Source: a virus
Virus record (IMG/VR): IMGVR_UViG_3300045944_000260
Span: 1 to 36,160 of that record
Reading direction: 5' to 3' (one strand)
Length of the DNA stretch: 36,160 bases
Below, in pieces: positions 1,071-36,160 of this stretch. Under the pieces are notes generated by a model, which worked only from the letters and a program-made list of their open reading frames with translations, was not told the origin of the DNA and ran no database searches. Positions within the stretch are counted from its first letter, which is position 1. The number at the start of each line of letters is the position of its first letter. The translations under genes were made by a program, and so were the position numbers.

Positions 1071-1638
1071 CGCGCTCGAGACGCGCTATCAGCCCGGCCA
1101 TCTGCGCGTGGCTCTCGGCGACGGCCTGCGCCCCAAGTTGACCGGCCACGCCATCGTGTTCAATGCCCCGAGCGAAACGCTGGGCTTCTTCCGCGAGCAG
1201 ATCGCGCCGCAGGCGATCCAGCGCACCTTTGACGAGGGCATCGACGTGCGCGCGCTGGTCGATCACGATCCAGCCAAGATCCTTGGGCGGGTGAGTGCGC
1301 GCACACTCAAGATCGCCGGCGATCCTCACGGGCTCCTGGTGGAGATCGATCCGCCCGATACGACCTACGCGCGCGATGTCCTCGAGTCCGTGCGCCGCGG
1401 CGATCTCAGCGGCATGTCCTTCGCCTTCCGCACGCTCATCGACGAGTGGGACGAATCGGTCGAGCCGCCGATGCGCACCGTGAAGGACATGCGGATCTCG
1501 GAAGTGAGTATCGTGACCTTCCCTGCGTACCCCCAGACCGACGTGGACGTGGCCCAGCGCTCGCTGAGTGCCTATCGCGCGGCCAAGCCCTTCGTGCCCT
1601 CGCTCGCCTTGCGCCGCCGCATGCTGGAGCTGCCGTGA
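1048..1638 (+). CDS. Prohead protease (HK97 gp4 / peptidase U35-S78 family)
   Basis: This is the maturation protease that cleaves the N-terminal delta domain of the capsid protein and then itself. The 196-residue length is typical. Family motifs are visible: a GHAIVFN strand near residue 33, VDHDP with the expected catalytic His73, and SGMSFAF with the expected catalytic Ser124, followed by the conserved RISEVSIVTFPAYP segment. The ATG is preceded by GGAGG with good spacing and overlaps the portal end by 23 nt. The order portal-protease-capsid is standard, but here a glycosyltransferase separates protease and capsid. Confidence 0.95.
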   Translation: MPSLAPPDALETRYQPGHLRVALGDGLRPKLTGHAIVFNAPSETLGFFREQIAPQAIQRTFDEGIDVRALVDHDPAKILGRVSARTLKIAGDPHGLLVEIDPPDTTYARDVLESVRRGDLSGMSFAFRTLIDEWDESVEPPMRTVKDMRISEVSIVTFPAYPQTDVDVAQRSLSAYRAAKPFVPSLALRRRMLELP

Positions 1639-3383: not shown

Positions 3384-4748
3384 ATGCCGGCACATCAGGA
3401 TCTCGTCGATCAGCGCCACGCCATCGCGCAAGAACTCCGCAAGATCGTGGACAAAGCCACCGCCGAGAAGCGCGATCTGAACGCGGAGGAAAACGAGAAG
3501 TTCGACCGGCTCCACGGTGAGGATTCGGCGCTTCGCGCCAAGCTGGACAAGCTAACTCGCCTGGAGCAGATCGAGCGCGAGCTCGGCGAGAGCCGCGGCC
3601 GGCAAGCCGAGCCGGCGAAGCCGTGGACGCCCGAGCCGACCGTGCCTGCACGCCGGGAGACCTCCCAGGATCGCTATGCCTCCGGGCTCGAGGGCTTCCG
3701 GACGTGGCTCCTGGCCGGATCGACCAAGCGCAACACGATCACCGCCGAGCGCATCGACGCCGCCCGGCGGGTAGGCTTCGATCCCGATAGCCGGATCGTC
3801 GATCTCGAAATGCCCGTCATCGTGCCGCATTCGCTCGAGGAAGCCCGCAGTCTCAAATACGACGCGGTGGACTACCGGGCGATGGCGGTGGGCTCGGCCG
3901 GCCTCGGCGGCTACTCCGTCCCCGATGAGCTGATGCGCCCGCTCGAGGTCGCCCTGCTCCAATTCGGCGGCATGCGCACGGTGGCCACCATCCTGCGCAC
4001 CGATACCGGCGCTTCGCTGCCGATCCCGATGACGAACGACACCGCCAACAAGGGCGAGATCATCGCGGAGAACGCGACCGTCAATCAGCAGGATCTGACG
4101 CTCACCCAGCTCACCCTCGGCGCCTACAAGTATTCCTCGAAGATGGTGCTCGTCTCCGTCGAGCTCATGCAGGACAACGCCATCAATCTGGCGTCCTTCC
4201 TCGGCGAAGCGCTGGGCACCCGGATCGGCCGCATCACCAACGATCACTGGACGACCGGCACCGGCACCAGCCAGCCGTGGGGCATCGTCACCCGGGCGAC
4301 CACCGGCAAGGCGTCGGCGACCTCGCAGCAGACCAGCGTGATCTTCGACGACCTGGTGGACCTCGAGCACTCCGTGGATCCGGCCTACCGGCCCGGGGCG
4401 CGCTTTATGATGCACGACAGCACGCTCAAGGTGATCAAGAAGCTGAAAGACACGAGCGGCCGGCCGCTCTTCCTGCCGGGCCTGGCCTCCACGAATCCCG
4501 ACACGATCCTCGGCTATCCCTTCGTCATCAATCAGTCGATGGCCGCGGTGGGGACGACGGCGAAGTGCATTCTCTTCGGCGATCTGTCGAAGTACATCAT
4601 CCGCGACGTGCGCGGGATCACGCTGCTGCGGCTCGATGAGCGCTTCGCGGAATTCCATCAGACCGCCTTCCTGGCCTTTGCGCGCTTCGACGGCGATCTG
4701 ATGAACGCCGGCACCAACCCGGTCAAGTTCTTCGTCAACGTGGCGTAG
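3384..4748 (+). CDS. Major capsid protein (HK97 gp5 family)
   Basis: Residues 1 to about 75 form a charged, coiled-coil delta domain that acts as an internal scaffold. A linker of about 40 residues follows, and from about residue 150 the HK97 fold. The fold shows the usual SAGLGGYSVPDELMRPLEVAL and ASLPIPMTNDTANKGE segments, the VSVELMQDNAINLASFLG spine helix and a terminal ARFDGDLMNAGTNPVKFFVNVA. The 454-residue length fits a self-scaffolding capsid cleaved by the protease at 1048. The ATG is preceded by AAAGGG. It is the most plausible substrate for the adjacent GT41 enzyme, although nothing in the sequence proves this. Confidence 0.95.
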   Translation: MPAHQDLVDQRHAIAQELRKIVDKATAEKRDLNAEENEKFDRLHGEDSALRAKLDKLTRLEQIERELGESRGRQAEPAKPWTPEPTVPARRETSQDRYASGLEGFRTWLLAGSTKRNTITAERIDAARRVGFDPDSRIVDLEMPVIVPHSLEEARSLKYDAVDYRAMAVGSAGLGGYSVPDELMRPLEVALLQFGGMRTVATILRTDTGASLPIPMTNDTANKGEIIAENATVNQQDLTLTQLTLGAYKYSSKMVLVSVELMQDNAINLASFLGEALGTRIGRITNDHWTTGTGTSQPWGIVTRATTGKASATSQQTSVIFDDLVDLEHSVDPAYRPGARFMMHDSTLKVIKKLKDTSGRPLFLPGLASTNPDTILGYPFVINQSMAAVGTTAKCILFGDLSKYIIRDVRGITLLRLDERFAEFHQTAFLAFARFDGDLMNAGTNPVKFFVNVA

Positions 4749-4757
4749 GAGGCGGGC

Positions 4758-4940
4758 ATGGCGTGGCTGGCGGGCGGGACGACCAAGCAGTGTGAGAAGT
4801 GCGGCGGCACCATCAAGACCGACAACGAGATCGTGGAGCAGCCGGAAGAGGGCGAGCCGGTGACGCGCGAGATCGAGCGGCATCTCGGCTCCTGCAATCC
4901 GCCGGTGGTGGAGGAGTACGCGGAGGCGCCGAAGCCGTGA
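4758..4940 (+). CDS. Small Cys/His zinc-finger-like protein
   Basis: This 60-residue protein carries QCEKCGG near residue 11 and HLGSC near residue 42, together a possible C-x2-C...H-x3-C zinc site. The acidic middle is rich in Glu. It lies between capsid and connector genes, where phages often carry short head decoration or unknown proteins. The start follows a GGAGG-like site 9 nt after the capsid stop, and the end overlaps the next gene by 4 nt. I assign no function. Confidence 0.7.
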   Translation: MAWLAGGTTKQCEKCGGTIKTDNEIVEQPEEGEPVTREIERHLGSCNPPVVEEYAEAPKP

Positions 4941-5170
4941 AGATCAAGTGCCTCGTGCCGGAGGCGGATATGAGCGGGTCGTTCGACTACGGGCAGATCG
5001 TGGATATGCCCGAGGCGACGGCCCGCGCCTTTCTGAAACGGCGCACGACCGACGGCTCGCCGAAGTGGGTGGAAGTGGCCCCGACGGCCTGCCCGCACTG
5101 TGGCCAAGATCTCGAGGCGCCGCCGCTCGAGGCGGCCACCGTCAGCCACCAACCGCGGCGCCGTGGCTGA
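4937..5170 (+). CDS. Hypothetical protein with single CxxC
   Basis: This 77-residue protein starts at GTG (4937), overlapping the previous stop by 4 nt. The N-terminal two-thirds (YGQIVDMPEATARAFLKRR) resembles the small all-beta or mixed head-module proteins in which a binding loop is followed by an amphipathic helix. The C-terminus has ACPHCGQDLEAPP, half of a zinc ribbon. It ends inside the start of the connector gene. Function unknown. Confidence 0.65.
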   Translation: MKIKCLVPEADMSGSFDYGQIVDMPEATARAFLKRRTTDGSPKWVEVAPTACPHCGQDLEAPPLEAATVSHQPRRRG

Positions 5171-17295: not shown

Positions 17296-17823
17296 ATGGC
17301 CAGCACCGGCAACGTCTTCGTCGGGACGGGCGAGAACAACGCCGGTATCGGCGCAACGGCGTGGACGAACCCCGGCAATATCACCTCCGACAATGCGACG
17401 GATGCCTCATGCAACGCCGCCGCGACCTCGCAGTACCTCGTCGGGCGTAATTGCGGGTTTGCGATTCCCACGGACGCCACGATCGTCGGCGTGACGGTGC
17501 GGATCGAAGCCGCCGAAACCTCGGCCGGCTCCGAAACGCTTAACGGGCGCTTGCAGGATGAAACGGGGGCGCTGACCGGGAGCGGCAAGACGGCCAGCAT
17601 CGGCGGCACGACGCCGACCGTGTACACCTACGGGGGCACCGCGGACCTCTGGGGCGCCACGCTGACGCCCGCGATCGTCAATGACGCGGACTTCGGCGTG
17701 CGCTTTTGGTTCACGACCGCGCACAACATGACGGTCGATTACGTCACGATCGCCATCGAGTATTCCACGCCGACGCCTGCCGAATTCTGGGTGCCCGAGC
17801 TGCAGACCGCCATCGCCCCATGA
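17296..17823 (+). CDS. Beta-sandwich virion protein
   Basis: This 175-residue protein has a conserved phage/bacterial surface-module pattern: TAWTNPGNITSDNATDASC, then CGFAIPTDATIVGVTVRIEA, a YGGTADLWGATLTPAIVNDADFGVRF block and VDYVTIAIEY at the end. These modules are usually fibre- or capsid-bound jelly rolls. The C-terminal tail EFWVPELQTAIAP resembles the QEFWQPLRV segment of the following Pro-rich protein, suggesting shared docking sites. The gene starts at ATG, two bases after the previous stop. Confidence 0.65.
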   Translation: MASTGNVFVGTGENNAGIGATAWTNPGNITSDNATDASCNAAATSQYLVGRNCGFAIPTDATIVGVTVRIEAAETSAGSETLNGRLQDETGALTGSGKTASIGGTTPTVYTYGGTADLWGATLTPAIVNDADFGVRFWFTTAHNMTVDYVTIAIEYSTPTPAEFWVPELQTAIAP

Positions 17824-19091
17824 TCAACCGCCGCGTGCCGCGCCCCATCGAGGAGCCGCGGCTCACGCGGTCGATCCTCTTTGAAGTCGTCCCGATCGGC
17901 GTCGGCGGGCCCGTCCCGACGCCGCAAGAATTCTGGCAGCCGCTCCGCGTCAAGGCCGAGGCCCCGACGCTCACGCCTCCGCTCACGACGACGGTCCTGC
18001 TCGGCGAGTACGTCTATCCCGTCCCCGAGCCGCCCGTCCCGATCCGCGTAGACATGGCCCCACTGCGGGCGCGCTATGAAGCGCCGCCCATTCGCTATGC
18101 GCCCGTGCTGCTCGTGGGCCTCGTCGAGACGGTGCCGCTGCCGATCGATGTCGTCACCGCGCCGCTCACAAATGCCTCACAGATCCTCGAGCCGATTCCG
18201 CGCGCCTCCCGGATCCTCACGCCGCCGGCCGTCGCCGTCGCGGCGCCGGTCAACCTGCTCACCCAGCAGCGCCCGCTGGCCCGGCCGATTCCGCCACCGA
18301 TCCCGGCGCCCGTCCAGCGCCTCGTTACGGCCCCGATCCCCGACCGGCACCCGAGCCCGCTGCTGCTGACGGGGCGCATTGCGCCCGAGCCGATCCAGGC
18401 ACCGCGGCCGCGGCTGGTCGTCGTGCCGGTGGCCGATATCATCAACCCGCTGGATCTGCTGCGGCAGCAGCGCCCGCACGCCGGGATCATCCGGACGCCC
18501 GTCCTGGTGCGCCCGCCGGCGCTGGTGGCCGTCCCTGTCCCGGATCGCCACCCGAGCCCGCTCCTGCTCCAGATCCCGCGGCGGCTCGAGGAACGGGCCC
18601 CGCTGCCGAGCTCGCGCCTGGTCGTCGTGCCGGTGGCCGATGCGCCCGTAGCGCCGCCGCCCGCGCTCGAATTCCTGGCGCCACGGCAGGCCGTGCGGCC
18701 GATCCCGGCCCGTATCACCGCCGGTGCCAGCCGCCTCGTCACGGTGCGGCCGACGCTGAATCTGCTGACCACCCAGGCCCCGCGGCAGGGGATCCTGCGG
18801 GCGGTCCCCGCCGAGGCCGGCTATCGCCCCAGCCGCTATATCAGCATCGTCCCAGCCGATCGCATCCCGCCCGTGCTCCTGCTCATGGTGCGCCCGCAGC
18901 CGGTCTATGTGACGATGCCGCGGCCTTCTCAGCTCGTCGTCGTTCCCGAGATGGCCGAGATCATCACCGGCCCGCTCAATGTGTTCAAAGTGCCGCCGCA
19001 TCGGCGCGGCTTCGCCAGCCCGCGCAATGAACGCCAAGGCTTTCCCAGCCAGATCCCGCGCCGCCACTTCCCGGCGCCCCGACGGAGATAA
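17820..19091 (+). CDS. Proline-rich repeat protein, putative fibre
   Basis: This 423-residue protein starts in an ATGA overlap. After about 70 residues it consists of around ten imperfect repeats of about 30-37 residues. Each has a hydrophobic triplet (VLL, NLL, LLL), a Pro/Arg stretch, and a strand such as RLVVVPVAD, RLVTAPIPD or LVAVPVPD. The pair PDRHPSPLLL occurs twice. Gly is scarce, Pro and Arg very abundant. The last 40 residues are basic (RRGF...RRHFPAPRRR). I know no family with this pattern. Order between fibre proteins and a fibre-adaptor-like protein supports an extended tail appendage. Confidence 0.65.
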   Translation: MINRRVPRPIEEPRLTRSILFEVVPIGVGGPVPTPQEFWQPLRVKAEAPTLTPPLTTTVLLGEYVYPVPEPPVPIRVDMAPLRARYEAPPIRYAPVLLVGLVETVPLPIDVVTAPLTNASQILEPIPRASRILTPPAVAVAAPVNLLTQQRPLARPIPPPIPAPVQRLVTAPIPDRHPSPLLLTGRIAPEPIQAPRPRLVVVPVADIINPLDLLRQQRPHAGIIRTPVLVRPPALVAVPVPDRHPSPLLLQIPRRLEERAPLPSSRLVVVPVADAPVAPPPALEFLAPRQAVRPIPARITAGASRLVTVRPTLNLLTTQAPRQGILRAVPAEAGYRPSRYISIVPADRIPPVLLLMVRPQPVYVTMPRPSQLVVVPEMAEIITGPLNVFKVPPHRRGFASPRNERQGFPSQIPRRHFPAPRRR

Positions 19092-21730: not shown

Positions 21731-21931
21731 ATGCTCCGCACCCGCGCCCGCTGCTGGGAGATTCCGACGCGCGACGACAGTGCCGCCGCCTATCACGCCT
21801 TAAAGCTGATTCTGAGGAGGCCCGAATGTCCACCGCTGTCGCCACCACCGAGGCGCCGATCCATTACAGCGCAAGCGAGATTGCTTTGGTCAAGAAGACC
21901 ATTGCGGCGGGCGCCACGGACGAAGAACTAA
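21731..21931 (+). CDS. Doubtful small ORF in a gap of the early operon
   Basis: The gap 21723-21825 contains an ATG at 21731 whose first 30 residues (MLRTRARCWEIPTRDDSAAA...) look coding-like, but the frame runs 106 nt into the Bet/RecT gene before stopping at 21931. It may be a short real protein, a remnant, or chance. The GAGGAGG at 21815-21821 serves the annealing protein gene. Confidence 0.22.
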   Translation: MLRTRARCWEIPTRDDSAAAYHALKLILRRPECPPLSPPPRRRSITAQARLLWSRRPLRRAPRTKN

Positions 21932-22599
21932 AGCTCTTCCTCTTCGACTGCAAGCGCCAAGGCGTGCATCCGCTCGATCGGCTCATCCATTTCAGCAAGC
22001 GCGGCGGGAAGTACACGCCGATCACGTCCATCGACTTCATGCGCCTGCGGGCGGATGACACCGGCGTGCATGCCGGGACGGACGATCCCGTCTACGACCT
22101 GCCCGAGGATAGCGACAAGCTCATCCGGTGGGCGAAGGTCACCGTATACAAGTTCGTCCAGAGTCAGAAGGTCGCCTTCACGGCCACGGCGCGCTGGTCG
22201 GAGTACGCGCCGCCGGGCAGCGAAGGCTTCATGTGGAAGAAGATGCCGCGCCTGATGCTCGGCAAGTGCGCCGAGGCGCTGGCGCTGCGCAAAGCCTTCC
22301 CGAAACAACTGCACGGCATCTATGAGCGCGCCGAGATGGACCAGGCCGAGCGCGCCACGCCGGAGCCCGAAGCGCCGCCGCGCGTGGAGCCCGCGCCGCA
22401 GGAGCTCCTGACGCTCGAAGCCGATTCCAATCCGCTGGCCGAGGTCAAGGCGGGCCTGGTCACGCGCATCGAGAAATTCACCTTGGCCAAGATCACGTTG
22501 CTGATGCACCGGCTCGATCTGGGTGAGGGCGAGTGGCAAAACCTGGACGTGGCCGCAATGGATCTGCTCGCGAAGAGTCTGGAGGGCAGTAAGAAATGA
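21826..22599 (+). CDS. bet: Phage recombination protein Bet / RecT-family ssDNA annealing protein
   Basis: This protein promotes annealing of single strands in phage recombination. It has 257 residues, close to lambda Bet. Family motifs are visible: ATDEELKLFLFDCKRQGVHPLDR near residue 31, HFSKRGGKYTPITSIDFMRLRAD near 55, and then GFMWKKMPRLMLGKCAEALALRKAFP at about 137-162, the Bet/RecT signature. The ATG follows a strong GAGGAGG. No classical exonuclease adjoins it; the resolvase-like nuclease at 23892 may be a partner. Confidence 0.92.
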   Translation: MSTAVATTEAPIHYSASEIALVKKTIAAGATDEELKLFLFDCKRQGVHPLDRLIHFSKRGGKYTPITSIDFMRLRADDTGVHAGTDDPVYDLPEDSDKLIRWAKVTVYKFVQSQKVAFTATARWSEYAPPGSEGFMWKKMPRLMLGKCAEALALRKAFPKQLHGIYERAEMDQAERATPEPEAPPRVEPAPQELLTLEADSNPLAEVKAGLVTRIEKFTLAKITLLMHRLDLGEGEWQNLDVAAMDLLAKSLEGSKK

Positions 22600-26731: not shown

Positions 26732-27055
26732 ATGCCGCGCGCGCCCGCCCGCCCATGTACGACGCAGGGCTGTCCCAACCTGCAGCCGTGCGCATCGCAT
26801 CCCCGCATTCCCTGGCGCCGGCCGCAATCGCAAACACGCCAGCAGCGTGGTTACGATCACCGTCACGAATTTCTCCGCCGCCGCGTGCTGCGCGAAGAAC
26901 CGCTCTGCCGAGCCTGCCGCATTCGCACGTCGCTTATTTCTGATCACATCGTGCCGCTCTCGTTGGGAGGCAAGACCGTGCGCTCGAATCTCCAAGGCTT
27001 GTGTGCGTACTGCCACCGCACCAAGACGGGACGCGAAGGACAGGCGGCACGATGA
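26732..27055 (+). CDS. HNH endonuclease (terminase-associated type)
   Basis: This 107-residue protein carries PLCRACRIRT...ISDHIVPLSLGGKTVRSNLQGLCAYCHRTKTGREG at about residues 57-104. This is the HNH fold with the DHIVPL metal-site His and two CxxC zinc knuckles. The N-terminal RPCTTQGCPNL carries further Cys. HK97 gp74-like HNH enzymes sit beside terminase and help DNA cleavage in packaging. Placement ahead of the terminase gene fits that role. Confidence 0.88.
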   Translation: MPRAPARPCTTQGCPNLQPCASHPRIPWRRPQSQTRQQRGYDHRHEFLRRRVLREEPLCRACRIRTSLISDHIVPLSLGGKTVRSNLQGLCAYCHRTKTGREGQAAR

Positions 27056-27261
27056 GCGTGGTCTATGCGCAGCTCAGTGCGGGTGAGTATCCGCTCGCCG
27101 TCGTGCAACACGTGCGCGACGTGCGACAGCACTGCGATGCGGTGAAATATTTCTTGGGGCGCATACATTCGGCGACGGAGAGGGGCCGCGCATCGCTGCG
27201 ATTCGCGGCTCAGGACCGGCGGGCCAGTCACGCGCGCGATTCGTCTGCGCAGAATTTATGA
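27052..27261 (+). CDS. Hypothetical protein in the small-terminase position
   Basis: This 69-residue protein starts in an ATGA overlap with HNH and ends in an ATGA overlap with the large terminase. VYAQLSAGEYPLAVVQHVRDVRQHCDAVKYF weakly resembles the leading helix of some large-terminase N-termini. It is too short for a typical small terminase and has no clear HTH. The C-terminus is basic. Function unknown. Confidence 0.55.
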   Translation: MSVVYAQLSAGEYPLAVVQHVRDVRQHCDAVKYFLGRIHSATERGRASLRFAAQDRRASHARDSSAQNL

Positions 27262-28874
27262 TTTCGGTGGGCCAAGCGAGCGCGATGAGGCCCGGCCCGA
27301 AACGCGATCCCGGCGGCAACGGGCTGATTCGGCTCGTCGCCACGAAGCCCGCCGAGCGCATGAGTGAGTTTTGCAGCACGTATCTGACGCACGTCAAGGG
27401 CGAGCTCGCCGGCGTCCCGCTCGTGCCGGATCGGTGGCAAGTCCGCGACATCATCAAGCCGATTTTCGGAACGCTCAAAGGGCCTCTGCGGCAATACCGC
27501 ACGAGCTACGTCGAAGTGCCGCGAAAGAACGCCAAGAGCACGTTAGGCTCGGCCATCGCGCTCTATCTGCTGCTCTGCGACGACGAACCGGGCGCAGAAA
27601 TTGTGTCTGCGGCGGCGGATCGCGACCAGGCCGCGGTGGTCTTCGACATCGCGCGCTCGATGGTTGAAGCGAGCCCGACGCTCAAACAGCACTGTGTGAT
27701 TTACCGGCGCGAGATCGTGGTGCCGAGCACCGGCTCGCGCTACAAAGCGATCAGCGCCGAGGCGTATTCGAAGCACGGCTTGAATCTGCACGGCGCGATC
27801 ATCGACGAAGTCCATGCGCATCCGAATCGCGAGCTCTGGGACGTGCTGGCCACCTCGATGGGCGCGCGGCGCCAGCCGCTCACTTTTGCGATCACGACGG
27901 CGGGGTACGACCGATCGGAAAGTAATCTGTGCTGGACGCTGCACCAGCACGCCGAGCGCGTGCTCGAGAATCCGAAGCTCGATCCGACCTTTTGGCCCGT
28001 GATCTATGCGGCGCCGCGGGAGGCGGATTGGCGCTCGCCGCGCGTCTGGGCGAAGGCGAATCCCGGGCTCGGCGTCACGATCAAACGCGATTACTTGGCC
28101 GCGGAATGCAAGCGTGCCGAAGAGATCCCGAGCTACCAAAACCAATTCCGGCGCTTTCACCTGAACCAGTGGACCGAATCGGAAACCGTGTGGATTCCCG
28201 TCGCGAAATGGGACGAGAACGCGACGAGCGTGGATCGCGCGCGCCTGGCGGGGCGGCCGTGCTACGGCGGGCTCGATCTCTCGACGACGACGGATCTCAG
28301 CTCGCTCGTGCTGGTGTTTCCCGACGCGGAGCGCGGCGGCTTCGACGTGCTGTGTACGACGTGGTGCCCGCGGGAGGGGATCGCCAAGCGCGCGCAGAAA
28401 GACGCGGCGCCGTATCCGCTCTGGGTGCGCGACGGCTATCTCACGCCGACCGAAGGCAACGTGGTCGACTACGACGTGATCCGCGAAGACGTGAAGCGGC
28501 TGGCCGAGGAATTCCGCATTCAAGAAATCGCCTTCGACCGCTGGAACAGCTCGCAGATCGTGACGCAATTGCAAGCCGACGGGGCGACGATGGTGCCGAT
28601 GGGCCAGGGCTTCGCGTCGCTCTCGGCGCCGGCGAAAGAGCTGGAGAAGTTAGTGCTCGCGCGCAAGCTGCGGCACGGCGGCCAGCCGCTCCTGCGCTGG
28701 GCGATCGGCAACACGGTGATCGAGTCGGACCCGGCGGGGAACATCAAGCCGTCGAAGCGCAAGAGCACGGAGCGGATCGATCCCACGGTGGCGCTGGTGA
28801 TGGCGCTCGGCCGCGCGATCCTGCACGACCAGGCGGGGAGCGTGTACGAATCGCGCGGGGTGGTGACGGCGTGA
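27258..28874 (+). CDS. terL: Terminase large subunit (HK97-like, Terminase_1)
   Basis: This 538-residue packaging motor and nuclease has a Walker A-like VPRKNAKS at about 87-94, Walker B AIIDE at 180-184, and a motif III region LTFAITTAGYD. The nuclease domain shows YGGLDLSTTTDLSSL (first catalytic Asp), IAFDRWNSSQ (second), and a closing KRKSTERIDPTVALVMALG with the third acid. It starts at ATG 27258; ATG 27285 is an alternative. Unusually, the gene is not followed directly by portal but by a 5.4-kb sugar cassette. Confidence 0.95.
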   Translation: MISVGQASAMRPGPKRDPGGNGLIRLVATKPAERMSEFCSTYLTHVKGELAGVPLVPDRWQVRDIIKPIFGTLKGPLRQYRTSYVEVPRKNAKSTLGSAIALYLLLCDDEPGAEIVSAAADRDQAAVVFDIARSMVEASPTLKQHCVIYRREIVVPSTGSRYKAISAEAYSKHGLNLHGAIIDEVHAHPNRELWDVLATSMGARRQPLTFAITTAGYDRSESNLCWTLHQHAERVLENPKLDPTFWPVIYAAPREADWRSPRVWAKANPGLGVTIKRDYLAAECKRAEEIPSYQNQFRRFHLNQWTESETVWIPVAKWDENATSVDRARLAGRPCYGGLDLSTTTDLSSLVLVFPDAERGGFDVLCTTWCPREGIAKRAQKDAAPYPLWVRDGYLTPTEGNVVDYDVIREDVKRLAEEFRIQEIAFDRWNSSQIVTQLQADGATMVPMGQGFASLSAPAKELEKLVLARKLRHGGQPLLRWAIGNTVIESDPAGNIKPSKRKSTERIDPTVALVMALGRAILHDQAGSVYESRGVVTA

Positions 28875-28990
28875 TCATGGTCCGGCCGGAATTATCTGCG
28901 CTGTCAGGCAGGCGGGAAGGAACGCCCGTGGCTGCGGACAGGCGGCCCTCGCGGTGGCGGGTCAGACCGCTAACGGACCACCATTCGTGA
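28871..28990 (+). CDS. Possible 39-residue peptide after terminase
   Basis: A GTG at 28871 overlaps the terminase stop by 4 nt, and the frame ends at TGA 28988-28990, itself overlapped by GTG 28987. It is Arg-rich and without recognisable motif. The double 4-nt overlap is the only support. Confidence 0.25.
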   Translation: MIMVRPELSALSGRREGTPVAADRRPSRWRVRPLTDHHS

Positions 28991-29064
28991 CGCTGCGGGT
29001 CGGCGAATCCACGCTCGGCCGGCGCGCCTCGGTGCTCACCCGCCGGGCCAAGGGGGGCACGGCG

Positions 29065-29217
29065 ATGCAGATCGTGAGTCCGATCCTGCTGGTCTTGGCC
29101 TTCGTGTGTTTCTTCATCGCGGCGATCAAGCCCAGCGCGCTGGGCGCGGTGAATCCGATCGGCTTGGGGCTGGCCCTCTGGGTCTTGAATGCCCTCGTGG
29201 TGATCGCGCCGCGATGA
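29065..29217 (+). CDS. Small two-span membrane protein
   Basis: This 50-residue protein from ATG 29065 has AGGGGGG 7 nt upstream; GTG 28987 would add 26 residues. ILLVLAFVCFFIAAIKPS and GLGLALWVLNALVVIAP are two spans with a short loop, a holin-like topology. The next gene's ATG overlaps its stop. No lysis enzyme adjoins, so function is open. Confidence 0.55.
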   Translation: MQIVSPILLVLAFVCFFIAAIKPSALGAVNPIGLGLALWVLNALVVIAPR

Positions 29218-29750
29218 AGGTCGCGGCCAAATATTGCCGAGGGCTCCCCGCGGAGCGATTCGTGCGGTATGTCGAGCCCGAGCCGAATTCGGGTTGTTGG
29301 CTCTGGATCGGCGCCCGGCATCGGCAAGGGTATGGGTTGTTCGAATCTGAGCGGGGCCAGACGCGCCGGGCCCATCGGTACAGTTACGAATTGGCCTGCG
29401 GCCTGATCCCATCTGATTTGTTTGTGCTCCATCGGTGTGATCAGCCGTGCTGTGTCAACCCAGCCCATTTGAGAGCCGGGACGGCGCAAGACAACGTGGA
29501 TGACATGTGGGCTCGGGGCCGCGGGAACCGAGATGTCCGAGCGATGCAGGCGCATCAAGTACGTGGCGAACGGCATGGGCACAGCAAGCTCTCCACCTCG
29601 GAGGTCGCGCAAATCCGGCTCCTCGTCGCTGACGGCGAGTTGACCCTGCGAGAGATCGGTCAACGATTTGGCGTGACACGGTCCAATGTGTCCTGCATTG
29701 CGCTTGGTAAATCGTGGAGGGAGCGATCAGAGTCAGCGCCAACTACATAA
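29214..29750 (+). CDS. HNH homing endonuclease
   Basis: This 178-residue protein has an HNH_3-type core: SGCWLWIGARHRQGYGLF, then RAHRYSYELACGLIP, VLHRCDQPCCVNPAHLRAGTAQDN and MWARGRGN. The C-terminal part, HSKLSTSEVAQIRLLVADG followed by REIGQRFGVTRSNVSCIALGKSW, is the common DNA-binding helix-turn-helix. Free-standing homing endonucleases of this kind insert between phage genes. It overlaps the aminotransferase gene by 37 nt if that gene uses GTG 29714, and marks the border between terminase module and sugar cassette. Confidence 0.88.
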   Translation: MKVAAKYCRGLPAERFVRYVEPEPNSGCWLWIGARHRQGYGLFESERGQTRRAHRYSYELACGLIPSDLFVLHRCDQPCCVNPAHLRAGTAQDNVDDMWARGRGNRDVRAMQAHQVRGERHGHSKLSTSEVAQIRLLVADGELTLREIGQRFGVTRSNVSCIALGKSWRERSESAPTT

Positions 29751-30814
29751 CCAGACACTTCGACAAGGCGCGCACCGAGGCGATCCTCGACGAGGTGCGG
29801 GCGCTCGTCGCGTCCGGCGACTTCACGCTCGGGGCGCCGCTCAAAGAATTCGAGTGGCGCTTTGCGAATCTCGTCGGCGGGCGTGAAGTCATCGCGGTGA
29901 ATTCGGGCACCGAGGCGCTGATCCTCGGCCTCAAGACGCTCGGGATCGGGCCCGGCGATGGCGTGATCGTCCCCGTCAATGCGTTTTACGCGGATGCCGG
30001 CGCCGTGGTCGCCGTGGGCGCCACGCCGATCTTCTGCGACGTGGACGCTTCGCATCAGCTCGATCCGCTCTCGATTCCGGTGCCGGCGCATGCCCGCGCG
30101 ATCCTGCCCGTGTGGTGGTACGGGATCCCGCCGGATCTCGATCAGGTGTGCGGCTACGCGCGCACGCATGGCCTGGCCGTGCTCGAGGACGCGGCGCAGG
30201 CGGTCGGCGGCGCCCTCGGCAATCGGCGCGCCGGCACGTGGGGCGACGTGGCGGCGTTCTCGTTTCACCCGATCAAGCCCTTGCACGTGTGGGGCGACGG
30301 CGGGGCGGTGGTGCTGGATCCGGGGGAGCGCGCCGATTGGCTCCGGCGCTATCGCGACCACGGCAAGCTGGACCGCGACACGATCGAATTCTTCGGCATC
30401 AATGCCCGCATGCAAACCATTCAAGCCGTCGTGGCGAATGCGGAGCTCTCGCGGGTGGGCCGCGCCGTGGGCCTGCGGCGGGCGCTGGCCAGCGAATTGG
30501 ATCTCGAGCTCGCGAAGATCCCTGGGCTCACGATTCCGCCGCGCCGCGGCCTGCCGGCGTGGCGGGGCTACGTGATCGAGGCCGAGGATCGGGACGGCCT
30601 GATGGCGCGGCTCACCGAGGCGGGCATCGAGGTCGCCGTGCATTATCCAACACCCTTGCACATGCAGCCTCCCGGGCGGGCCCTGGGCTACGCGCGCGGG
30701 GATTTCCCGGTGGCCGAGCGGCAGGCGCTGCGCCAGCTCACGCTGCCCTGTCACGAATTCCTCACGCGCGATGAAGTGGCCTACCTGCTCGAGTCCATCC
30801 AGGCCGCCGTATGA
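29714..30814 (+). CDS. DegT/DnrJ/EryC1/StrS-family PLP aminotransferase
   Basis: This 366-residue enzyme transfers an amino group to a keto-sugar nucleotide. Motifs visible: NSGTEALILGLK near residue 63, VIVPVNAFYADAGAVVAVGATPIFCDVD near 84, LEDAAQAVGG near 157 and AFSFHPIKPL with the PLP Lys188. A C-terminal YVIEAEDRDGLMARLTEAGIEVAVHYPTPLH follows. The start is taken at GTG 29714; it overlaps the HNH gene. An amino-sugar product is suggested by family membership, but the exact substrate is unknown. Confidence 0.88.
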   Translation: MEGAIRVSANYITRHFDKARTEAILDEVRALVASGDFTLGAPLKEFEWRFANLVGGREVIAVNSGTEALILGLKTLGIGPGDGVIVPVNAFYADAGAVVAVGATPIFCDVDASHQLDPLSIPVPAHARAILPVWWYGIPPDLDQVCGYARTHGLAVLEDAAQAVGGALGNRRAGTWGDVAAFSFHPIKPLHVWGDGGAVVLDPGERADWLRRYRDHGKLDRDTIEFFGINARMQTIQAVVANAELSRVGRAVGLRRALASELDLELAKIPGLTIPPRRGLPAWRGYVIEAEDRDGLMARLTEAGIEVAVHYPTPLHMQPPGRALGYARGDFPVAERQALRQLTLPCHEFLTRDEVAYLLESIQAAV

Positions 30815-31662
30815 AATGCCTCGTCACGGGCAGTCGGGGCTTTCTCGGCGCGGCGATGATCGCGCGCCTGCGCCGCGACGGGCACGACGTCATGGGCCTT
30901 GATACCGAGCCCACGCGGCAGGCGCCCGACGGCTACTACGTGCAGGACATCCGCTACCCGTTTCATCTGCGGCCGGTGGAGTGGGTGTTTCACTTCGCCG
31001 GGCTCGCCGCCGTGCCGCCCTCGCTCAAGCATCCGACGCAGTGGCTCGCCGTGAACACGCAGGGCACGGCGCACACGCTCGAGGCCGCGCGCCAGGCCGG
31101 CGCGACACGATTTCTCTACGCCGCCTCGGGCACGTGCTACGGCTTCGCGCCGCCGGAGCCCACACCGGAGACGGCGCCGATCCGGTGCGAGACACCCTAC
31201 GCGCTATCCAAATGGCTCGGCGAAGAGCTCGTGCGCCACTACGATCACGTCTACGATCTGCCGTCCGTCTCGTTGCGCTTGTTCAATCCCTACGGGCCCC
31301 GCATGAGTCCCCACACGAGCGGCATGGGCGCACTGCTCGAGCGGCGCCGCCAAGGCGTGCCGCTGCAGCTCACCGGCGACGGGACTCAGTATCGGGACTG
31401 GCATTACGTCGACGATACCATCGACGCCTTCGTGAAAGCTGCCGAATCCGATCACCGGGATCTCGCGATCAACATCGGCAGCGGCGCCCCGCAGACGCTC
31501 AACCGCCTCGCCGAGCTCCTGGGCAGTCCCGTGGAGTACATCCCCGCGCGCAGCGAAGCGCGCGGCACCTGGGCCGATATCACGCTCGCGAAGCGGCTGC
31601 TCGGCTGGGCGCCGACGGTTAGCTTCGAGGACGGCGTGGCGCGCACGCTTGCTCACGGCTGA
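30811..31662 (+). CDS. NAD-dependent epimerase/dehydratase (extended SDR, nucleotide sugar)
   Basis: This 283-residue enzyme has TGSRGFLG (6-13) as the NAD-binding Rossmann motif, SGTCYG (106-111), and the Y-x3-K pair Tyr130/Lys134, with RLFNPYGPR and DWHYVDDTIDAF following. This fits the UDP/GDP/ADP-sugar epimerase-dehydratase group such as GalE/RmlB/HldD. HldD-like function would complete a heptose pathway but cannot be told from sequence alone. It starts in an ATGA overlap with the aminotransferase. Confidence 0.88.
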   Translation: MKCLVTGSRGFLGAAMIARLRRDGHDVMGLDTEPTRQAPDGYYVQDIRYPFHLRPVEWVFHFAGLAAVPPSLKHPTQWLAVNTQGTAHTLEAARQAGATRFLYAASGTCYGFAPPEPTPETAPIRCETPYALSKWLGEELVRHYDHVYDLPSVSLRLFNPYGPRMSPHTSGMGALLERRRQGVPLQLTGDGTQYRDWHYVDDTIDAFVKAAESDHRDLAINIGSGAPQTLNRLAELLGSPVEYIPARSEARGTWADITLAKRLLGWAPTVSFEDGVARTLAHG

Positions 31663-32215
31663 CGAGCTGCGGCAGTTTGAACGCGACGTTGCCGACGCCT
31701 TCGAAGCGAAGCGCGTGACGGGCCCGATTCACCTTTCGGGCGGCAATGAGACACAGCTCTTGGAGCTCTTCACCGAGATCCAGCCCGAGGATTACGTGTT
31801 CTCGACGTGGCGCTCGCACTATCACGCGCTCTTGAAAGGCGTTCCGCCCGAGCGGGTGATGGCCGAGATCATCGCCGGCCGCTCGATGATGCTGCACTTT
31901 CCCGACTATCGCTTCTTCAGCTCGGCCATCGTCGGCGGCATTCTGCCGATCGCCTGCGGCGTGGCGGCGGGTGGCCATCGTTGCTGGTGCTTCGTCGGGG
32001 ACATGACGGCCAGCCTCGGCGCCTTCCACGATGCCGAGCGCTACGCGATGGGCCATCTGCTCCCGATCACGTTCGTCGTCGAGGACAACGGGCTCTCCAC
32101 GAATACACCGACGGCTGAGACGTGGGGCCTCCGGTGGGGCCTGCCGAAGACGCGGCGCTATGCCTACACGCGCACGTGGCCGCATACGGGGAGCGGACGC
32201 TACATTGCCTTCTAA
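31649..32215 (+). CDS. TPP-dependent E1 alpha/transketolase N-half-like subunit
   Basis: This 188-residue protein starts at TTG 31649 (14-nt overlap). WRSHYHALLKGVPPERVMAEI near residue 54 and the TPP/Mg motif from VGDM (116-119) through FVVEDN (142-147) are seen, as in E1 alpha subunits and transketolase N-halves. It is much shorter than usual (about 320 residues); it ends soon after NTPTAETWG...YTRTWPHTGSG. With the beta-like protein at 32327 it would form a split TPP enzyme, perhaps making a ketose phosphate such as sedoheptulose 7-phosphate. The reaction is inferred. Confidence 0.75.
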   Translation: MLTADELRQFERDVADAFEAKRVTGPIHLSGGNETQLLELFTEIQPEDYVFSTWRSHYHALLKGVPPERVMAEIIAGRSMMLHFPDYRFFSSAIVGGILPIACGVAAGGHRCWCFVGDMTASLGAFHDAERYAMGHLLPITFVVEDNGLSTNTPTAETWGLRWGLPKTRRYAYTRTWPHTGSGRYIAF

Positions 32216-32336
32216 AGCCTGCGCGCATCGCCCGCAGGAGCAACTGCGCTTTGAGCTCGACGAGTCCGGCTTGTATTACCGGCGGATTTATCGCTGCGGC
32301 AAGTGCGGCCAAGAGTACGCGGGGAAGTGGCATTGA
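32205..32336 (+). CDS. 43-residue zinc-ribbon peptide between TPP subunits
   Basis: The frame starts at TTG 32205, overlapping the previous gene by 11 nt, and ends at TGA 32336, overlapping the next gene's start. It reads KACAHRPQEQ...LYYRRIYRCGKCGQEYAGKW, with a C-x-H and CGKCG pair likely to bind one zinc. The YRCGKCGQEYAG pattern is common in small phage ribbon proteins. Confidence 0.5.
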   Translation: MPSKACAHRPQEQLRFELDESGLYYRRIYRCGKCGQEYAGKWH

Positions 32337-32842
32337 CGCCCTTCCATCGCGCCGTGAATCAGGCCATGCGGGCGCTCGCCGCCGAGCCGCGCACGGTGTT
32401 CGTGGGCCAGTCCGTGCGCTACGACGGCGCGGCGATCTATCACTCGCTGGACGGCGTGCCGCTGGCCCAGCGGCGCGAGATGCCCGTGCTGGAAGATTTT
32501 CAGCTCGGCTTTTGCACGGGCCTCGCGCTCACGGGCTACGTGCCGATCTGCATCTTCCCGCGCTGCGACTTTCTGCTGCTCGCCGCCAATCAGCTCGTCA
32601 ACCATCTCGACAAACTGCCGTATTTCGGCTGGGAGCCGAAGGTGATCATCCGGACCGTGGTGGGCGCCCGCGCGCCGCTCGATGCGGGCCCGCAGCATAC
32701 GCAGAATCACGCGGATGCCTTCGAGCGCATGCTGCGCACCGTGCGCGTCATGGAAGTCACGACGGCCGAGGACGTGGAGCGCGCCTACGCCTCCGCGTGG
32801 CATGACAAGGGCTCGGCGCTGATCGTGGAGGCGCCGCGGTGA
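32327..32842 (+). CDS. TPP-dependent E1 beta/transketolase C-half-like subunit
   Basis: This protein has about 170 residues (GTG 32327 or TTG 32333). MPVLEDFQLGFCTGLALTGYVPICIF is the E1-beta segment with the TPP-activating Glu near residue 54-56. PRCDFLLLAANQLVNHLDKL and PLDAGPQHTQNHADAFERM follow. The C-terminal transketolase domain (about 120 residues) is absent, as in the compact alpha partner. Together they look like a minimal two-gene transketolase or E1 enzyme. Confidence 0.75.
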   Translation: MALTPFHRAVNQAMRALAAEPRTVFVGQSVRYDGAAIYHSLDGVPLAQRREMPVLEDFQLGFCTGLALTGYVPICIFPRCDFLLLAANQLVNHLDKLPYFGWEPKVIIRTVVGARAPLDAGPQHTQNHADAFERMLRTVRVMEVTTAEDVERAYASAWHDKGSALIVEAPR

Positions 32843-33384
32843 TCTTCAAGACGTGGCTGCAGGAAGTGCAGGGGATCGCCAAGCGCGTGGACGTGGGCGA
32901 GCTCGAGCGGCTGTGCGGCATTCTCCAGCACGTGCGCGCCGATCACGGGCGCGTGTTCGTCTGTGGCGTGGGCGGCTCCGCGGCGAATGCGAGCCACTGC
33001 GTCAACGATCTGCGGATGCGGGCCAAGCTGGACGCCTACGCGCCGACCGACAACGTGGCCGAGCTCACGGCGCGGCTCAACGATGAGCCCGACGGCTGGG
33101 TGCAGCTCTTCACGCGCTGGCTCGAGTGCGCGCGCCTGGGCGAGCCCGACGCCGTGCTGATTCTCAGCACGAGCGGCGAGACGCTGCCGCTCGTCGCCGC
33201 CGCGCAATACGCCTTCGAGCATCGCGCGCACGTGCTCGCCATCCTCGGGCGTCACGGCAGCACCGTCGCCAAGTACGCGCGGGTGTCGGTCGTCGTGCCG
33301 GGGGAGAGCCCGCATCGCGTGGGCCATGCCGAAGCCTTCCAGGCCGTGCTCTGGCACGCCATCGTGGAGGAATTGGCGGCGTGA
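32839..33384 (+). CDS. SIS-domain phosphosugar isomerase (GmhA-like)
   Basis: This 181-residue enzyme, of typical GmhA size, starts at GTG 32839. VFVCGVGGSAANASHCVNDL near residue 40 matches the GmhA GNGGSAADAQH motif, and AVLILSTSGETLPLVAAAQYA near residue 110 matches S-T-S-G. GmhA converts sedoheptulose 7-phosphate to D-glycero-D-manno-heptose 7-phosphate. The presence of HldE-like genes just downstream supports that assignment; a different phosphosugar is possible. Confidence 0.82.
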   Translation: MIFKTWLQEVQGIAKRVDVGELERLCGILQHVRADHGRVFVCGVGGSAANASHCVNDLRMRAKLDAYAPTDNVAELTARLNDEPDGWVQLFTRWLECARLGEPDAVLILSTSGETLPLVAAAQYAFEHRAHVLAILGRHGSTVAKYARVSVVVPGESPHRVGHAEAFQAVLWHAIVEELAA

Positions 33385-33824
33385 TGCTGCTGCCATTCAC
33401 GTCGGGCCTCATCGCGACGACCGGATACGATCCCGAGATCATCGCGCTCATCGACCGGCATTATTCCCGCCGGCCTGGGCAGCGGACGCAAGTCGGAGGC
33501 CCCGCGCGCCGATTGATCCTGCGCGATGCGCTCGGGTCCGTCGCCTTCGTGTGGCTCTGGCCGCTTGACGGCAAGCGCTGGGATGGGCAGAACGGGTTTT
33601 ATTGCGCCGCGTTTCGCAATGAATCCGCGCGGCTCAGTAGCGAGATCATTCTCGAAGCGGAGCAGCACGCCCGCGACTATTGGGGCGGGGCCCATCGGAT
33701 GTTTACCTACGTGGATCCCCGCCGCGTGCTGTCAAACAATCCTGGGTACTGTTTCCTTCGGGCTGGCTGGCGTCGCGTGTTCACAACGCGGCATGGCCGA
33801 CACCTGTTGGTCAAAGAACCATGA
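33384..33824 (+). CDS. Uncharacterised protein, possible GNAT-like fold
   Basis: This 146-residue protein has IDRHYSRRPGQRTQVGGPARRLILRD near the N-terminus and ALGSVAFVWLWP...GQNGFYCAAFRNES, then a helix IILEAEQHARDYWG, and YVDPRRVLSNNPGYCFLRAGWRRV at the C-terminus. The overall pattern resembles small phage-encoded GNAT-like proteins that lack an obvious acetyl-CoA motif. It sits inside the sugar cassette in overlaps of 1-4 nt, so an acyl modification of the sugar is a guess. Confidence 0.6.
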   Translation: MLLPFTSGLIATTGYDPEIIALIDRHYSRRPGQRTQVGGPARRLILRDALGSVAFVWLWPLDGKRWDGQNGFYCAAFRNESARLSSEIILEAEQHARDYWGGAHRMFTYVDPRRVLSNNPGYCFLRAGWRRVFTTRHGRHLLVKEP

Positions 33825-34243
33825 AAGTCGTGCTGTGTCATGGCTGCTGGGATGGCCTGCACCCGGGCCATCTGCGCCATCTTGAGGCGGCCAAGCGCTA
33901 CGGCGATCGGCTCATCGTCTCCGTCACCACCGATGCCTGGGTCCGCAAGGGCCCGGGGCGCCCGTACATTCCCGAAACCCTGCGCGCCGAGCTCGTCGGC
34001 GCCCTGCGCTGCGTGGATCAGGTCATGCTGACCAATGGCAACTCGGCGGCCGAATTGATTCGCCTCTTGAAGCCCGCCGTGTTTGCCAAGGGCCACGACT
34101 ACGCGCCGGGCACCGATCCCCGCACCCGCGACGAGGCCGCCGCGCTCGCGACCTACGGCGGGCTCATGCTCTTCACGCCGGCCGAAGTCGTCTTTGCCTC
34201 CACGCGCATCTTTGCCGAGTCGGGCATCCGCTATGGCGCGTGA
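33821..34243 (+). CDS. HldE C-domain-like sugar nucleotidyltransferase
   Basis: This 140-residue protein has HGCWDGLHPGHLRHLEAAKRYGD near the N-terminus, the cytidylyltransferase-like HxGH motif (HPGH, residues 14-17), and a late STRIFAESGI, the ISSS-like motif. It matches the adenylyltransferase part of HldE (RfaE2), which makes ADP-heptose from heptose 1-phosphate. The start overlaps the previous stop, and its end overlaps the kinase by 11 nt. Confidence 0.85.
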   Translation: MKVVLCHGCWDGLHPGHLRHLEAAKRYGDRLIVSVTTDAWVRKGPGRPYIPETLRAELVGALRCVDQVMLTNGNSAAELIRLLKPAVFAKGHDYAPGTDPRTRDEAAALATYGGLMLFTPAEVVFASTRIFAESGIRYGA

Positions 34244-35093
34244 GCTCTGGGCCGCGGTGCGCGCGCTGCGCGTGCAAGTGATCGGCGATGCCATCCGCGA
34301 TATCTACACGCAAGCCCGATGCCTCGGCGCCGCGTCGAAATCGCCGACGCTCGTCTACGAGCGCCAGGGGAGTCGCGAGTGGATCGGCGGCGCCGGCGTC
34401 ATCGCGGCGCACTGTCGTGCCGCCGGGGCCCTCGTGGGCCTCACGACCGCGGGCGAGACGATCAAGGAGCGGATTCTCGTCAGCGGCGTCAAGGTCGCCG
34501 AGTTTCATCGCCCCGCCACGCCGCGCCAGGATCGGGTGGAGCTCCTGGCCCATCCGGATTGCGTGCTGTTCGCCGACTTCGGCCACGGCATGTTTGAGCC
34601 GGGGAGCTGGAGCCGCATGCGGGAGGCGATTCCGCCCTCGGTCCTCACGGCGGCCGACACCCAGACGAGCGATATCGCGTGGGGTAACATTCTCGACTTC
34701 GCCGGGGCGCACTTGCTCTTTGCGAATGAGCGCGAAGCGCGCTTCGCCGTCGGCGATCGCTGGAGCCCGCTCGAGGCGATTGCGCGCCGGCTCTGGACGC
34801 GGGCCCACCTGGCGGGGACCGAAGCCCTGTTTCTCAAGCGCGGCGCCGACGGGCTCTCGGTCTATCACCAGGGCCCAACCCTGCACGTGCCCGCCTGCGC
34901 CGTGCAGCCCATCACCGATCCCATCGGCGCGGGCGATGCGCTCATGGCCTACGCCACGCTGACGTATGCGGCGACGAAGGATCTGGCGCTCGCGGCGCGC
35001 GTCGGCTCGGCTGCCGCCGCGGTGGCGTGCGCGCAGGAAGGTAATGCGCCGGTGGCGCCGGCAGCGATCCGCGCGCGCTGGTCGGAGTGGTGA
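34233..35093 (+). CDS. HldE N-domain-like PfkB sugar kinase
   Basis: This 286-residue protein has VQVIGDAIRDIYTQARCLG near residue 14 and EWIGGAGVIAAHCRAAGA near 49, which follow the HldE kinase pattern. ITDPIGAGDALMAYA near 225-240 is the PfkB GAGD signature, with the catalytic Asp at about 234. This kinase would form heptose 1,7-bisphosphate. In most bacteria kinase and transferase are fused in one HldE protein, kinase first; here they are separate, in reverse order. No GmhB phosphatase is seen. Confidence 0.85.
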   Translation: MARELWAAVRALRVQVIGDAIRDIYTQARCLGAASKSPTLVYERQGSREWIGGAGVIAAHCRAAGALVGLTTAGETIKERILVSGVKVAEFHRPATPRQDRVELLAHPDCVLFADFGHGMFEPGSWSRMREAIPPSVLTAADTQTSDIAWGNILDFAGAHLLFANEREARFAVGDRWSPLEAIARRLWTRAHLAGTEALFLKRGADGLSVYHQGPTLHVPACAVQPITDPIGAGDALMAYATLTYAATKDLALAARVGSAAAAVACAQEGNAPVAPAAIRARWSEW

Positions 35094-35248
35094 GGCTCGA
35101 TGGCGTCGATAGCGTCATGGTCATCGGCGGGCTCCTCGTGGCCATCGGCACGGCCTGGATCCATCCGCCGAGCGCCGTCATCGTCGTGGGAGTCGAATTG
35201 ATCGTGGGCGCCATTCTCGTCTCCGCGTCCCGAGCAGGGAGGCAGTAA
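35090..35248 (+). CDS. Small two-span membrane protein upstream of portal
   Basis: This 52-residue protein starts at GTG 35090 in a 4-nt overlap with the kinase stop and ends directly before the portal ATG (TAAATG). VMVIGGLLVAIGTAWI and AVIVVGVELIVGAILVSA are two membrane spans. GGGAGG near its end serves as portal ribosome site. Function unknown; holin-like topology. Confidence 0.55.
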   Translation: MRLDGVDSVMVIGGLLVAIGTAWIHPPSAVIVVGVELIVGAILVSASRAGRQ

Positions 35249-36160
35249 ATGGGCCGACTGGTGCAGGGCGCACGGAGTTACTTCCTCGGGGAGAAATCGC
35301 TCCGCGATCCGACGCTCAATCTCTACTTCGGCACGGGCCCGACGGTGGCGGGCACCAGCGTCACGGAGTGGACGGCGCTGAATTATTCCGCCGTCTGGCA
35401 GGCCGTGCGCGCCATCTCGGAGCCCGTCGGCTCGCTCCCGCTGTTTCATTACCGGCGCCTCCAGCCGCGGGGCAAGGACCGGATCACGACGAGTCGGCTG
35501 CACCGGCTCATCCACGATCAATTCAATCCCGAAATGACCGCGGTCATCGCGCGCACGACGATGCAGGCCCACGTCCTCACGTGGGGCAATGCCTATGCCG
35601 AGATCGAGCGCGATCAGCTCGGCCGCCCGCTCGCCCTCTGGGTGCTCACGCCGGATCGCGTCACGCCGGATCGGAATAAGGCCGGCGATGTCGTCTACCG
35701 CGTCCAGCAGGAAAGCGGCACGGAAGTCATCATCGCTGCGGCCAACATGCTCCACGTGCTCGGCCTGCCCTTTAACGGCCTGATGGGCTATTCCGTCATC
35801 GCCAAGGCGCGGCAGTCCATCGGCCTCGGCACCGCGACGGAAAAGTACGGCGCGCAATTCTTCGGCAACGGGGCGACCTCAAGCCTCGTGCTCACGCATC
35901 CCGGCACGCTGTCGAAGACGGCGAGCGAGAACATCAAGACCTCCGTGCAGAACGCCATCGGCGGCGACAATCGCCACCGCCTCTTGATCTTCGAAGAGGG
36001 GATGAAAGCCGAAAAGATTTCCATCCCGCCCGATGACGCGCAATTTCTAGAATGCGTCGTGCCTCGCACGCTCTTCACGATGGCCGACGGGACGCGCCGG
36101 GCGGTGGAGTCCCTGCGCCCGGGCGATGAAGTCATGTCATGGAATGGGGCCATCCTGGTG
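35249..36160 (+). CDS. HK97-family portal protein, N-terminal part, interrupted by intein (partial)
   Basis: The ATG at 35249 follows a GGGAGG site. Residues 1-268 are portal: VTEWTALNYSAVWQAVRAISE near residue 34, PLFHYRR, WGNAYAEIERD and an ANMLHVLGLPFNGLMGYSVIAKAR strand-helix, then AQFFGNGATSSLVLTHPG. At codon 36053 the frame continues into an intein and runs off the window. The C-terminal extein is the sequence at positions 174-1070 if the molecule is circular, giving QFLE joined to TRKFQ. Confidence 0.9.
   Translation, partial: MGRLVQGARSYFLGEKSLRDPTLNLYFGTGPTVAGTSVTEWTALNYSAVWQAVRAISEPVGSLPLFHYRRLQPRGKDRITTSRLHRLIHDQFNPEMTAVIARTTMQAHVLTWGNAYAEIERDQLGRPLALWVLTPDRVTPDRNKAGDVVYRVQQESGTEVIIAAANMLHVLGLPFNGLMGYSVIAKARQSIGLGTATEKYGAQFFGNGATSSLVLTHPGTLSKTASENIKTSVQNAIGGDNRHRLLIFEEGMKAEKISIPPDDAQFLECVVPRTLFTMADGTRRAVESLRPGDEVMSWNGAILV
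35880..36052 (+). repeat. Right copy of terminal direct repeat (173 bp)
   Basis: Matches 1-173 with differences at 36007, 36049 and 36052, all synonymous. Two of the three differences lie in the last two codons before the intein. This is what co-conversion next to a homing insertion would leave. Confidence 0.9.
36053..36160 (+). other. Intein N-terminal (Hint) segment in portal gene, truncated by window end
   Basis: From Cys codon TGC at 36053 the frame reads CVVPRTLFTMADGTRRAVES, then LRPGDEVMSWNGA. This is the Hint block A pattern: catalytic Cys1, a DG turn, then the Glu-Ser-Leu...GDEV segment. The insertion lies between Glu (QFLE) and Thr of the portal; Thr is an accepted +1 extein nucleophile. 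The splicing end and any endonuclease domain lie beyond the window. Confidence 0.85.

Follow-up and report, generated by a model that had tools for sequence, protein, structure and literature searches.

The phage population behind the contig studied here very probably holds two alleles of one portal gene, one uninterrupted and the other carrying a class 1 self-splicing intein between Glu268 and Thr269. The contig, called the window below, makes up an entire virus record and is 36,160 bases long. Nearly the same portal stretch stands at both of its ends. One copy continues as portal and the other runs into the beginning of an intein. The intein may be a selfish element that is partway through its spread in a wild phage population.

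Portal Sequence at the Two Ends of the Window

The portal stretches 1-173 and 35880-36052, both on the + strand, align without gaps and are identical at 170 of 173 positions. Their first 127 nt match exactly (1-127 = 35880-36006), and they part ways from 174/36053 onward. The three differences are all synonymous and at third codon positions, the left copy having G and the right one A in each case: 128/36007 (AAG/AAA, Lys), 170/36049 (CTG/CTA, Leu) and 173/36052 (GAG/GAA, Glu). The near-identity and the three synonymous changes had been pointed out in the preliminary description of this DNA, and both are confirmed here; the last two changes lie near the insertion, at −4 and −1. Directly repeated 25-mers occur in the window at a single offset, 35879, and beyond that offset the window holds no direct repeat of 25 nt.

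The left copy is the end of the N-terminal extein in the intein-minus allele and runs on as TRKFQVLEIAR (frame 3-1070; Pfam Phage_portal, E = 2.6e-52). The C-terminal extein (174-1070, + strand) has 298 aa plus a stop and begins at the would-be +1 Thr. At the other end, the portal ORF from 35249 (Phage_portal, E = 6.6e-58) enters CVVPRTLFTMADGTRRAVESLRPGDEVMSWNGAILV in frame. Its N-terminal extein (35249-36052, + strand) has 268 aa, ends in QFLE and contains the three intein-plus-side changes within its last 46 nt. The first 36 intein codons follow (36053-36160, + strand), with Cys1 and the N-terminal Hint block, and are truncated by the contig end. The portal is of the HK97 type (Phage_portal, 196.8 bits against a cut-off of 39.1; portal_HK97, E = 1.1e-43, 149.8 bits against a cut-off of 112.05). 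Its AlphaFold model was poor (pLDDT 56.9).

The Uninterrupted Allele

Our IMG/VR portal search returned a separate record, IMGVR_UViG_3300045930_000274 (28,524 bp), which appears in our locus set as L003, L015 and L040. It matches window 1-27216 with zero mismatches and window 34572-36051 with two, at 36007 and 36049; at the third site, 36052, it also has the left-copy base. Window 27217-34571 is absent from it. The record spans the empty junction and passes straight into window 174 onward, with the C-terminal extein directly adjoining the N-terminal one, and its portal is a single open frame of 566 aa without an insert. An empty homing target site is thus present in a near-identical genome. 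Because this record crosses the empty junction, the window ends are adjacent, and the genome measures about 35.9 kb. The intein-minus form therefore closes at 35,879 bp and is either circular or circularly permuted. Of the two portal alleles that had been proposed for one phage, the empty one is thereby confirmed by a separate record.

Evidence that the Stub Begins an Intein

In the right copy, Cys is the first residue in frame after the extein (GAA/TGC at 36052/36053). The +1 residue is the Thr encoded by 174-176 of the empty allele, where the filled allele would return to portal sequence. The 39 aa across the junction matched Hint_2 (E = 0.0096), Hint (E = 0.028) and Hom_end_hint (E = 0.043), all below the Pfam cut-offs. 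For the 36-aa stub, the best NCBIfam match was an intein-containing radical-SAM model (E = 3.5e-4), which aligned from the Cys and scored 19.6 bits, where its cut-off for whole proteins is 700 bits. A PDB sequence search with the stub gave four matches at E ≤ 10, of which three were synaptic exocytosis regulators (E = 0.01 to 0.49) and the fourth was an intein-domain protein (E = 0.49). General library models by themselves would not name the stub an intein.

The stub scored 42.3 bits against a profile built from six full inteins of other phages; its E-value of 5e-11 is somewhat flattered, because the six inteins had been recruited starting from the stub. The whole ORF scored E = 3.5e-9, and the best of 20,000 shuffles of the stub reached 7.7 bits. 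Together with the Phage_portal match of the left copy, the profile score bears out the earlier statement that one copy continues as portal and the other enters a Cys-first, Hint-type sequence. The identical insertion place in other phages, described below, is a stronger argument than the E-value of the stub. The intein sequence in hand comprises 108 nt and ends at intein residue 36, before block B. Block B of class 1 inteins carries Thr..His, and at its place the relatives L039 and L038 have TADHP and SADHP, respectively.

Full Relatives of the Intein in Other Phages

When 49 residues spanning the junction served as the query, seven loci came up, and two of these had a complete intein at the same place; profile scans added more. 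The profile scan of IMG/VR contigs placed the intein family in 15 loci, which represent 11 distinct inteins. In nine other phage contigs, the equivalent place of the portal holds a full intein: L133 (the same contig as L039 and L045), L134 (L046), L135 (L047), L136 (L048), L137, L138, L144, L145 (L049) and L038. The residues before Cys1 at this site are QFLE, QFIE, QHLE or QFLA, and the N-terminal block is shared with the window stub. Full inteins are 350-376 aa long, Cys1 is present in 10/10 distinct aligned relatives, and a terminal HN with Thr or Ser at +1 is found in 15/15 loci; L146 begins inside the intein. These inteins back the filled allele of the window's phage, and the +1 residues agree with the claim that Thr at the Glu/Thr junction is a valid nucleophile.

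LAGLIDADG_3 was detected in the two relatives scanned (E = 4.1e-13 and 8e-14), and the motif FLS[GA]..D.DG in all 10 distinct inteins read, one of which sits at a second portal site. Five structure models were made of the L039 intein (best pLDDT 80.7; others 66.4, 62.7, 62.5 and 47.7). The top PDB match of the best model was the TliVMA homing-endonuclease intein (E = 7.5e-18, TM 0.72), and PI-SceI also matched. By analogy with its relatives, the window intein probably holds a LAGLIDADG homing endonuclease. It would continue for about 370 codons to His-Asn, return at the portal Thr and splice itself out to leave a working portal. It would spread by its cleavage of empty portal genes during co-infection, followed by repair from the filled copy.

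Two further observations concern individual relatives. In L139-L143, which are identical over the 2,398 nt compared, a family intein (L139:4001-5098) occupies the second portal site, 25 residues downstream of the first (GDTKE/C ... HN/TTAWG). Their first site, QFLA/T, is unoccupied, and in the similar L134 portal the arrangement is reversed; the pattern suggests that the intein moved to another site of the same gene. In the L145 intein (4001-5128), the first LAGLIDADG motif has GNG against GDG in the other five inteins of the six-intein alignment. From the sequence, this is possibly a loss of a catalytic Asp and hence a dead endonuclease.

Frequency of Filled and Empty Sites

We surveyed the insertion site in the loci found with each query, with L001, L002, L012-L014 and L037 left out. 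Among the TerL-related loci (best 80 of 168), 69 had a readable portal site and 69/69 were empty; of the others, 6 lacked a portal match and 5 were partial. The portal query gave 35 empty sites among 36 loci and one partial site, with the record listed as L003, L015 and L040 counted three times. The nine intein-query loci comprised six split sites, two without a portal match and one called partial (L046), whose intein was read directly despite this call.

A 30-base pattern of the intein start, with one degenerate base, found no IMG/VR record. The C-extein and TerL searches of IMG/VR (TerL, best 80 of 168) gave no second filled-allele record of the same phage; the IMG/VR searches may omit the own record and very near ones. 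Comparison of the L039 intein with 50,697 phage records yielded 14 matches at E ≤ 1e-5, none of them at the QFLE-type HK97-portal site. One genome contig scan for the intein gave no match, and a second gave one weak match in an archaeal MAG (37% identical over residues 150-228). The plasmid search gave one Nocardia match (23.6%).

Stub and Exteins Compared

The stub shares 12-28 of its 36 residues with its relatives, whose portals are 29-42% identical to the window portal. It is most like L133/L039 (28/36) and L038 (25-26/36, depending on the alignment), and both portals are only 35-36% identical to that of the window. With L135, L136 and L145 it shares 12-15 residues, yet their portals are closer (39-42%). 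L144 is fairly close in both (23/36; portal 40.1%). We compared six relatives site by site, in 2 × 3 pairs picked after the identities had been seen. The stub was nearer to L039/L038 than to L047-L049 in 6/6 pairs (p-values 3e-5 to 3.4e-3), and the exteins leaned the opposite way (p-values 0.002 to 0.09, below 0.05 in 5/6 pairs).

Over 10 relatives, stub and extein identity showed no significant correlation (Spearman’s correlation, −0.39, p-value 0.26), and intein identity exceeded extein identity in 41 of the 45 pairs. In this set, L139 alone stands for the identical L139-L143, and the partial L146 was left out. The stub thus groups with the inteins of some portals and the exteins with those of others, a pattern suggestive of horizontal transfer. 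Inteins more alike than the exteins around them are, on this sequence comparison, the trace left by horizontal spread between phages, though the stub is short.

Flank Changes and Possible Co-Conversion

All three changes fall in the 46 nt before the insertion (−46, −4 and −1), which is suggestive of co-conversion. Random placement in 173 nt would give this with a p-value of 0.018, but the test is biased because the assembler’s join must sit where the alleles first differ. With the join at that place, the intein-plus haplotype further upstream is not visible. All three intein-plus bases together were found in 0/6 of the intein-bearing relatives compared, which gives no donor pattern. Taken singly, the intein-plus A occurred at −46 in 1/6, at −4 in 1/6 (both in L048) and at −1 in 3/6; with further flanks read, the counts were 1/9 at −4 and 3/9 at −1.

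A portal intein in mid-sweep, with an active endonuclease that converts empty genes and with the three changes as a short co-conversion tract from a sister phage, is a tentative reading that we hold to be less probable than its contrary. If it were true, invasion frequency and tract length would be measurable directly from existing reads. Since both alleles of one wild phage, otherwise near-identical, are in hand, the reads, including those of sibling samples, could give the frequency of the intein. A RecT-family gene lies at 21826-22599 of the window and could serve repair.

The Probable Assembly Fork and Alternative Explanations

One metaSPAdes setting of the JGI kind, given in PMC7171226, has a k list that ends in 127. 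The window contig was presumably assembled with those settings. The exact shared run at 35880-36006 (+ strand) is 127 nt, the same as this k-mer, and we read it as the assembly-graph node that splits the alleles; both alleles were therefore probably in one read set. Their co-presence in one sample is argued from this 127-nt run rather than from reads. A fork at the node, with one branch running round the intein-minus genome and the other into the intein, would explain both contig ends. With both alleles among the reads, the contig would then run from the last part of the intein-minus genome into the intein-plus branch. The filled branch stops 154 nt past the fork, and low depth or a further fork may account for its early end. 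Given the shortness of the stub, the filled allele may be rare, or may come from a near relative that has only this stretch in common.

In a different account, the stub belongs to another related phage of the same sample, with a portal identical over at least 127 nt, and the assembler joined two lineages. The join at an exact 127-mer would suit such an origin, a rate of three changes in the final 46 nt (about 6.5%) is in keeping with a sister lineage, and the stub haplotype is known from 35880-36160 alone. However, the other portal homologues in IMG/VR, among the matches listed, reach at best 57% (N-extein) and 62% (C-extein) protein identity. Set against these values, the exact 127-nt run and 98% identity overall point to the same or a sister strain and not to a distant phage, and we regard a joining of two lineages as unlikely.

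A chimeric read or library artefact, in which an intein piece was fused to the portal in vitro, would agree with a stub that is short and ends 154 nt past the fork. However, the join is in frame and codon-precise, lies where nine phage contigs hold the intein family and stands before a valid +1 Thr, and the flank has three synonymous differences of its own, which a chance chimera would hardly produce. We rejected this explanation as extremely improbable on account of the codon-precise join at the family site and the flank differences. Duplication of the portal gene within one genome, giving an intact copy and an intein-bearing one, would account for the presence of both copies in one contig. 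The copies, however, stand at the two ends of the contig, which the 28.5-kb record unites into one portal gene, so that the geometry is that of a genome closing on itself; nor has the window any other direct repeat of 25 nt. Duplication, which scarcely deserves credence, was rejected because that record fuses both ends into one portal gene. Two portal alleles, empty and filled, remain our preferred reading.

Other Genes in the Window

A glycosyltransferase family 41 gene (1635-3146; E = 1.6e-28) lies between the prohead protease and major capsid genes. We take it to be of the O-GlcNAc transferase type, and capsid glycosylation is a possible role. A sugar-nucleotide module (29714-35093) comprises a DegT aminotransferase, an epimerase, two thiamine-enzyme halves (the second, Transket_pyr, below the cut-off), a SIS isomerase, a cytidylyltransferase and a PfkB kinase; it resembles a pathway of the ADP-heptose type. 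An HNH gene (26732-27055) lies immediately upstream of TerL, and a free-standing HNH_3 gene is found at 29199-29750. Two blocks of about 175 nt each (18264-18437 and 18465-18641), about 70% alike, lie within the ORF 17706-19091.

Comparison with Known Systems

The presence or absence of inteins in phages is already known, and here is one more case. Among the top matches in the open-access literature, we found no description of the HK97-portal insertion site, which may still occur in print. The portal is also interrupted by an intein in the mycobacteriophages ET08, Colt, Gizmo, Cane17 and Blubba, to which the portal matches among the 14 phage records belong (eight records, five phages, 28.7-29.1% identity to the whole L039 intein). 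The Colt intein has Cys1, HN and +1 Thr, as in the HK97-portal intein family, but its portal and insertion sequence differ (IKFS/C ... HN/TLNL). These mycobacteriophage inteins are probably the ‘PORT’ group (cluster C1) of Kelley et al. 2016 (PMC5050341).

Cryoconite-hole phage metagenomes have shown inteins as variable genome islands, one of them in a minor head protein (PMC7468147). Those islands belong to other phages and were found by read mapping, and the main text of that study does not use the word portal. The rise, coexistence and loss of empty and filled alleles in populations have been treated in models of the homing cycle (PMC1654191, PMC3229294).

Intein-plus and intein-minus terminase pairs have been reported in mycobacteriophages, with Omega and LittleE against Courthouse (PMC3706429), and BAKA-Courthouse and Bethlehem-Solon (PMC5050341); cleavage of inteinless alleles was examined in such pairs (PMC3706429, PMC5050341). 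There, as here, a packaging gene has an intein in one phage and lacks it in a relative. However, those pairs, as these sources present them, are named isolates and concern the terminase, whereas the present alleles concern the portal in one wild population. The case also reveals an intein family at one conserved portal site, across phages whose portals are 29-42% identical to that of the window.
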